This document shows positions 8,948-20,256 of a stretch of DNA of 64,000 nucleotides, piece after piece. Position 1 is the stretch's first letter; each line of letters opens with the position of its first letter. The translations under genes were made by a program, and so were the position numbers. The notes below the pieces were generated by a model that saw nothing but the letters and a program-made list of their open reading frames with translations, made no database searches and had not been told where the DNA came from. The stretch is from positions 2,678,001-2,742,000 of the forward strand of contig NC_011891.1 in the NCBI RefSeq assembly GCF_000022145.1, written 5' to 3'. Origin of the DNA: Anaeromyxobacter dehalogenans 2CP-1. Lineage in GTDB: Bacteria > Myxococcota > Myxococcia > Myxococcales > Anaeromyxobacteraceae.

Positions 8948-9116
8948 CTCAGAGCGCGTGAATCCATCCCCGGACCGAGCCAGGCGGTCGAGACGCGAGC
9001 AGCGCGAGGCGCGACGACCGAGCATGCCCCGAGGCCTGTGAGGGAGGAGCAACGACGCGATGCGACGCGGATCGGCCGCCGCGGCGACGGGAGGGGATGG
9101 GTTCACGCTCTCTCAG
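8948..9116. repeat. 169-bp dispersed repeat, copy 1
   Basis: This stretch matches 19435-19603 at 165 of 169 positions, with identical length. Its two ends form a 24-bp imperfect inverted repeat (21 of 24 paired): the left end begins CTCAGAGCGCGTGAATCC and the right end closes with GGTTCACGCTCTCTCAG. CTCAG occurs as a direct repeat at both outer edges. Inside, CATGCC-CCGA-GGCCTG is a near-perfect hairpin. The right edge supplies the TGA stop of the cupin gene. To its left, 8803-8947 holds no gene, only GC-rich dyads such as a 16-bp palindrome at 8864-8879. No transposase is present. Confidence 0.92.
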
Positions 9117-19434: not shown

Positions 19435-19603
19435 CTCAGAGCGCGTGAATCCATCCCCGGACCGAGCCAGGCGGTCGAGACGCGAGCAGCGCGAGGCGCG
19501 ACGACCGAGCATGCCCCGAGGCATGTGAGGGAGGAGCAACGACGCGATGCGACGCGGATCGGCCGCCGCGGCGACGGGAGGGGATGGGGTCACGTGCTCT
19601 CAG
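19435..19603. repeat. 169-bp dispersed repeat, copy 2
   Basis: Second copy, differing from 8948-9116 at four positions: one in the internal hairpin and three in the right terminal arm. Here the inner hairpin CATGCC-CCGA-GGCATG pairs perfectly. The terminal arms pair at 20 of 24. It again lies between convergent genes (esterase on the left, the Cys-motif gene on the right), and its right end again provides the TGA of the right-hand gene, at 19600-19602. Orientation relative to the flanking genes is the same in both copies. Confidence 0.92.
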
Positions 19604-20256
19604 GCCTTCTCGCCGACGAAGCGGTCCTTCTCGTCCCTGAACAGCACGTTGAACGTCGTGAGCGAGCCGTAGCACCGCGTCACGTACTGCTGCAGCTCCA
19701 CCTTCTCGGCGTCCGTCAGCTTGTCGGTGGCGTTGACCTTCTGCTCCAGCACCCGCAGCCGGTCGCGGATCATCACGATCTTGTGGAACAGGCTGTCGAG
19801 CGGGATCTCCTTGGGCGCGGTGCCGGGATCCCCGGGCTTCAGCACCACCGTGCCGCCCTCCCACTTGGGCGCGAGCGGGACGGGCACGTCCTCGCGCAGC
19901 GCCTCGCGGATGGCCTGGGCGAACTCCTCTCGCGTCATGTCGGTCAGCTCCTCGGGCAAGGGGACGGAGGTGGTGGGCGACGGCGCGGGCGTGCCGTGGC
20001 CCGGGGCGCGGTGCACGACCACGCTCGGCCCGGGCGCGCGCGCGCGGCGGCGCGCCGGCTCGGGCGGCGGCGCGGAGGGGATGGCGGCCTCGCGGGACAG
20101 GTAACGCTCGCAGACGGGCGCGGTGCCCGGGAAGTCGCCGGTGCGCACGCCCAGGCGGCACGGGCCGATGGGGCCGCGCGCGTCCTCCAGGATGGGCCGC
20201 CACAGCCGGCAGGTCCCGCACTCCTTCGGCCCGTAGGTGCGCTCGCCCTCGCTCAC
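19600..20256 (-). CDS. unknown 218-residue protein with N-terminal four-Cys motif and coiled coil
   Basis: I do not recognise the family. C13, C16, C33 and C49 (CGTCRLW ... GPCRLG ... PVCERYL) look like a small metal ribbon or Cys-knuckle. A Pro/Ala/Arg-rich spacer (55-105) follows, then a helical region (105-218) with TREEFAQAIREAL, KIVMIRDRLRVLEQKV and KVELQQYV, likely a coiled coil. No signal or membrane segment. The GTG start overlaps the cmk stop (GTGA), so the pair is co-translated. Its stop codon is furnished by the 169-bp repeat. Confidence 0.75.
   Translation of the reverse strand: MSEGERTYGPKECGTCRLWRPILEDARGPIGPCRLGVRTGDFPGTAPVCERYLSREAAIPSAPPPEPARRRARAPGPSVVVHRAPGHGTPAPSPTTSVPLPEELTDMTREEFAQAIREALREDVPVPLAPKWEGGTVVLKPGDPGTAPKEIPLDSLFHKIVMIRDRLRVLEQKVNATDKLTDAEKVELQQYVTRCYGSLTTFNVLFRDEKDRFVGEKA

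Follow-up and report, generated by a model that had tools for sequence, protein, structure and literature searches.

The window analysed here, a 64,000-nucleotide stretch of the Anaeromyxobacter dehalogenans 2CP-1 genome, holds two copies of a 169-bp repeat that belongs to a real family of mobile elements, a conclusion that is well supported. By our best explanation, which we hold to be highly probable, the repeat is a short non-autonomous element mobilised by IS1182 transposases, carrying a strand-specific hairpin that is under selection, probably as RNA, and having ends that can be exchanged. The terminal inverted repeats would be recognised in trans by DDE transposases of the IS1182 family, which would insert the element at CTNAG or CTAG and duplicate the target bases. 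A core of about 120 nt and both ends would together form, on one strand, one long rod whose tip is conserved, and through time this core would have gained different ends, each fitting different IS1182 transposases. The tip may bind a cellular factor that favours upkeep or spread of the element. We also propose, tentatively and at slightly less than even odds, that the persistent selected unit could be the strand-specific RNA hairpin module itself, which would ride successive IS1182 transposases, swap its ends and so cross species and phyla, and whose conserved tip would bind some factor. Dozens of repeats between genes in Anaeromyxobacter and related genomes, for which there is no Rfam family, are accounted for by such an element, whose structured motif is new, lacks annotation and occurs in several phyla.

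Copies, empty sites and neighbouring genes

The two window copies (Table 1) are each 169 bp long and differ at four positions of the repeat (89, 155, 161 and 162). The arms of their terminal inverted repeats pair at 21/24 positions in copy 1 and 20/24 in copy 2, and CTCAG is present at each end of both, exactly as the first-pass annotation had described them. The inner hairpin that it had pointed out is also there, the apical stem being unbroken in copy 2 and interrupted by a single mismatch in copy 1. A scan for promoter and terminator patterns at copy 1 found none. The 169-bp element has no coding capacity, and among relatives the core is mostly 118-125 nt long and keeps no reading frame.

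Table 1. Parts of the two copies of the 169-bp element, in positions of the window
Feature	Position	Strand	Remark
Copy 1, left CTCAG, target duplication	8948..8952	+	single CTCAG in orthologous empty sites L132, L141
Copy 1, left terminal inverted repeat AGCGCGTGAATCCATCCCC	8953..8971	+	
Copy 1, conserved core GGACCGAG...GGCGACGGGA, rod-forming	8972..9092	+	
Copy 1, apical tip with tandem G-A steps, GCGACGAC facing GGAGGAGC	9006..9055	+	G-A pairing by eye from alignment
Copy 1, right terminal inverted repeat GGGGATGGGTTCACGCTCT	9093..9111	+	inverted start AGAGCGTGAA = resident IS1182 right end
Copy 1, right CTCAG	9112..9116	+	TCA 9113-9115 = TGA stop of right-hand minus-strand gene
Copy 2, left CTCAG	19435..19439	+	one CTCAG at relative's empty site L146
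Copy 2, left terminal inverted repeat	19440..19458	+	
Copy 2, conserved core	19459..19579	+	
Copy 2, apical tip	19493..19542	+	
Copy 2, right terminal inverted repeat, commoner ...TCACGTGCT form	19580..19598	+	
Copy 2, right CTCAG	19599..19603	+	TCA 19600-19602 = TGA stop of minus-strand ORF 19600-20256

The core occurs 48 times in the 2CP-1 genome (G000; 5,029,329 bp, one contig), compared with 0 for a reversed-pattern control. Many further copies had indeed been predicted from the two in the window, and the opposite outcome, only two copies and no conservation of paired ends, had been named as grounds for doubting an element family; the 48 copies and the paired ends present in relatives speak for the family. 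The first 41 or so copies that we aligned in G000 are 94-100% identical, nearly all are 165-170 bp long, and CTCAG is mostly found at both ends, while copies in tandem have a single CTCAG between them. At about position 992490 of G000 (L018), a short remnant, CTCAGAGCGCGTGCTCTCAG, adjoins a full copy and resembles an internal deletion between two ends.

Orthologous empty sites, which the first-pass annotation had suggested looking for, were searched in two relatives, G001 and G002, using the joined flanks of occupied sites. Element-free orthologous sites were found in G002 (L130, L131, L136, L141, L146 and L149) as well as in G001 (L128, L129, L132, L133 and L154). Most of the aligned empty junctions from both genomes carry a single CTCAG, and the pentanucleotide is thus a target duplication. 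At least one insertion is apparently common to G000 and G001 (L040 and L105), and the covariance model described below detected no core copy in G002, against the 48 in G000. The element therefore inserts, duplicates CTCAG and is polymorphic among close relatives, as the empty, single-CTCAG and shared sites demonstrate.

The right-hand neighbour is a minus-strand gene for 38 of 41 G000 copies, where neighbours are as called by a simple codon-usage script rather than taken from annotation, and in most of these 38 the TCA of the right CTCAG provides the TGA stop of that gene. Other genomes, several of which have CTAG targets, show stop codons on either side of the copies; at the palindromic CTAG targets the orientation of the element looks random, and both orientations to the neighbouring genes occur. 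No copies were called inside genes and few between divergent genes (6 of the 72 copies outside G000 for which both neighbours were called). The simplest reading is that the target is CTNAG and that copies survive at harmless sites only: they usually lie directly 3′ of genes because CTNAG or CTAG often holds a TGA or TAG stop and because insertions within genes are selected against.

The same position directly after stop codons, together with the rarity of copies between divergent genes, could also be expected of a 3′ UTR element useful to the host, such as an mRNA stabiliser or insulator comparable to some REP/BIME, which would have spread through beneficial insertion after stops. We regard this as quite unlikely, since the presence of the element is patchy and polymorphic (abundant in G000, with no model match in G002), its plus strand lies antisense to the gene on the right in those 38 of 41 G000 copies and its orientation at CTAG targets looks random, and since the target sequence combined with purifying selection already explains the position.

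The conserved core and its fold on one strand

The plus strand of the element folds as one long hairpin, with free energies of -108.1 kcal/mol in copy 1 and -112.2 kcal/mol in copy 2 and z scores of -8.6 and -9.3, respectively, relative to dinucleotide shuffles. The minus strand folds less well (z of -3.5 in copy 1 and -5.1 in copy 2). Relatives of 2CP-1 have the core in common but not the ends. Searches of the genome and its relatives and covariance modelling, both of which had been recommended at first pass, revealed a family with strong covariation. With a covariance model built from 15 cores, 32 of the 147 genomes of the class were found to have the core; across the phylum, searched at a stricter threshold, 33 of 195 did. 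In an alignment of 79 cores, which was itself fitted to the covariance model, 94.2% of the cells are paired and double compensatory changes are seen in 25 of 31 pairs; double changes were already visible in 13 of the 31 pairs in a smaller, unguided alignment. The covariation score of the 79 cores is 0.464, compared with 0.158 when shuffled and at most 0.08 when slid.

When 84,980 species genomes were scanned with a pattern, the matches listed included Polyangiaceae and metagenome-assembled genomes (MAGs) labelled Nitrospirae and Elusimicrobia, phylum attributions that rest on MAG labels and binning as deposited. Ten genomes then searched from these listed matches had 2 to 53 matches each. An Elusimicrobia-labelled MAG has 26 matches spread over many contigs, among them a derived set that consists of the apical tip only. 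At L376 (G147:C61:18280-18810, from an Elusimicrobia-labelled MAG), two divergent tip-type elements lie in opposite orientation and have common flanking sequence. In Polyangiaceae (L230, L239, L278, L300 and others), the core with its own stem is found within larger repeats that have different outer ends; the outer inverted repeats of these are of at least two other kinds (GACCGCTTTCGATTTGACGCGA; AGAGCATGTTTACCAGCC). Plasmid and phage collections contain no match to the core, and the strict core pattern gave 0 matches in viral contigs. A shorter tip pattern did give 65 matches in the viral contigs, which we take as chance because the flanking core sequence is lacking. A different dispersed repeat of about 50 nt, GCGCGGCCTCGGCCGCGCGGAGTCGAGCG, is located in the left flank of L010 (G000, about 2107600) and has dozens of matches in G001 and G002.

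The mismatches in the hairpin are of unequal types. G-U outnumbers A-C by 106 to 23 in the core and by 110 to 15 in the terminal stems, and when the 17 end classes are considered separately, G-U is favoured in 13, A-C in none, and 4 are ties (sign test, p 0.00024). Reading of duplex ends by a transposase gives no reason for such an excess, which thus points to selection on the folded plus strand, ends included. A mutational cause, namely strand-biased C-to-T change, was rejected: copies are found in either orientation relative to genes, and the minus strand is the coding strand of the right-hand gene in G000, so that the opposite bias would be expected. The selected form is probably an RNA of the plus strand, and the hairpin presumably has a function.

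The hairpin could instead act as single-stranded DNA, either extruded or exposed by replication, and be bound during transposition. The near-palindrome is long, DNA too tolerates G-T wobble and tandem G-A pairs, and insertions occur in both gene orientations, so that no host promoter always lies ahead of the plus strand. However, DDE transposases work on duplex ends, and cruciform extrusion exposes both strands, from which a preference for G-U on one strand is not expected. We therefore consider a DNA hairpin doubtful, though worth keeping in mind, and prefer an RNA.

The fold also bears on whether the element is simply an ordinary MITE, that is, a deletion derivative of IS1182 with passive filler inside, whose conservation reflects recent shared descent. 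Its small size, IS1182-like ends and target duplication would agree with such an origin, as would the 94-100% identity within G000. But passive filler is not expected to be conserved among families and among phyla or to show compensatory changes, as the inside does in 25 of its 31 pairs; of the 17 end classes, 13 have the strand-specific fold and none goes against it, and the core is absent from the IS1182 element that we read. An ordinary MITE is for these reasons an unlikely explanation.

IS1182-family transposases and the turnover of ends

A candidate helper for the preferred reading, a non-autonomous element with a selected hairpin, is provided by a 1.5-kb repeat that adjoins five or six of the G000 copies. 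This repeat encodes a transposase of 427 aa, placed in the IS1182 family by a score of 370 bits to NF033551 (cut-off 270), with the Pfam domains DDE_Tnp_1 and DUF772. It is present in G000 in 10 copies, one of them internally deleted, and in none of seven relatives. All 10 copies are flanked by TCAG/CTCAG repeats in the same orientation, and the right end, when inverted, reads AGAGCGTGAA, which is the right end of window copy 1 and of three other copies. The core sequence was absent from the IS1182 elements read here. At L037 (G000 116574-117550), an internally deleted IS1182 lies between two oppositely oriented 169-bp copies.

When the ends of IS1182 elements were compared with those of the short elements over 16 positions, the G137 IS1182 matched the G098/G104b elements at 14-15 positions, and the G104 IS1182 matched the G104a elements at 13-15 and the related G137 class at 11-12. 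The match of the G000 IS ends to copy 1 is moderate (up to 13/16). Matches across classes are mostly 4-9 of 16, and the G098/G104b and G104a end groups do not match the unrelated groups tested. The G137 IS1182 is flanked by CTAG repeats, and an IS1182 fragment identical to it adjoins another element, with which it has a CTAG in common (L254). Judging from these sequence comparisons, the assignment of IS1182 as the putative helper is good in three cases, and the elements would be transposed by it in trans. A transposase search found no IS1182 in seven copy-bearing genomes (G098, G044, G007, G010, G036, G031 and G001), whose helper may have been lost, may lie in unassembled sequence, may be of a different kind or may simply be missing. 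The MO_167 genome (G150) has further IS1182-like elements at L357 and L358, whose CTAG-bounded ends are near-perfect (CTAGGGGGTGTTCCTATTAGCTGG; CTAGGTCGTGTCCCTGAATTC).

The terminal inverted repeats vary by lineage and fall into 17 groups. Within one genome they form multi-copy classes, two of which coexist in G044 and in G104; at L190 in G104, elements of both end classes are arranged in tandem with one CTAG between them. On a tree of 97 cores, which is based on 122 columns only and has many forks unresolved, the 17 end groups need 17 changes, the least possible being 16. Moreover, where two cores are 95% alike, the similarity of their ends can be at background level (for example L048 and L084). 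The ends thus have a quicker turnover than the core, through either replacement or fast change, and replacement appears to us the probable mode.

These ends and targets also weigh on the possibility that a RAYT (HUH) transposase moves the element as one of REP type, which would be in keeping with the hairpin, the high copy number and the fixed orientation to CTCAG in G000. The ends and the target are, however, shared with a DDE insertion sequence, insertion duplicates CTCAG whereas REP/RAYT elements are recognised by having no target duplication, and unlike elements stand in tandem with one CTAG (L190 and L254). We judge this reading very improbable. The first-pass annotation had offered a MITE-like element, a REP-type element or a structured RNA; the first and the last are borne out jointly, the structured form being probably RNA, and the REP type lacks support in view of the DDE helper candidates and the duplicated target.

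Comparison with known systems

No Rfam family reached its gathering score, nor was there any Rfam match up to an E value of 5, and we did not find the element described in literature on Anaeromyxobacter MITEs, IS1182 MITEs and myxobacterial structured RNAs. HEARO, the IscB omega RNA, is a mobile structured RNA; a HEARO-like reading was dropped, as there was no Rfam match and an unsystematic look noticed no associated nuclease gene. ERIC and REP/BIME are, like the 169-bp element, intergenic imperfect palindromes with conserved sequence and high copy number, but the element differs from them in sequence, in target and in ends matched to a particular DDE transposase. With IS1182 it has in common the ends, the CTNAG/CTAG target and copies that abut, and it differs in having no transposase gene and in a core that the IS1182 elements read here lack.

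The closest published idea that we found is the MRSC-65-2 motif (Narunsky et al. 2024), one long covarying stem that is a candidate mobile element or repeat, with dozens of copies per genome in diverse phyla and sometimes near a transposase (PMC11109978). None of the 79 cores has, on the plus strand, the UYCCGG repeat that is conserved in MRSC-65-2, and the two are probably distinct.

Bacterial MITEs such as MITEAba12 are short, non-coding elements with terminal inverted repeats, target duplication and many copies, presumed to be mobilised by resident insertion sequences (PMC6382973). The 169-bp element resembles them in being short and non-coding, and in its terminal inverted repeats, its target duplication confirmed by empty sites and its many copies. 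It differs in an inside that is deeply conserved and covarying on one strand, from family to family and phylum to phylum, and in ends that change; that the inside be unconserved beyond recent descent is a usual expectation of MITEs rather than part of their strict definition, and the element departs from it. We know of no MITE with a conserved covarying inside and changing ends. It is by their ends that non-autonomous elements are commonly defined, with the inside regarded as filler; in this family the inside lasts and the ends change, so that the idea of a selfish structured nucleic acid switching helpers can be put to the test.
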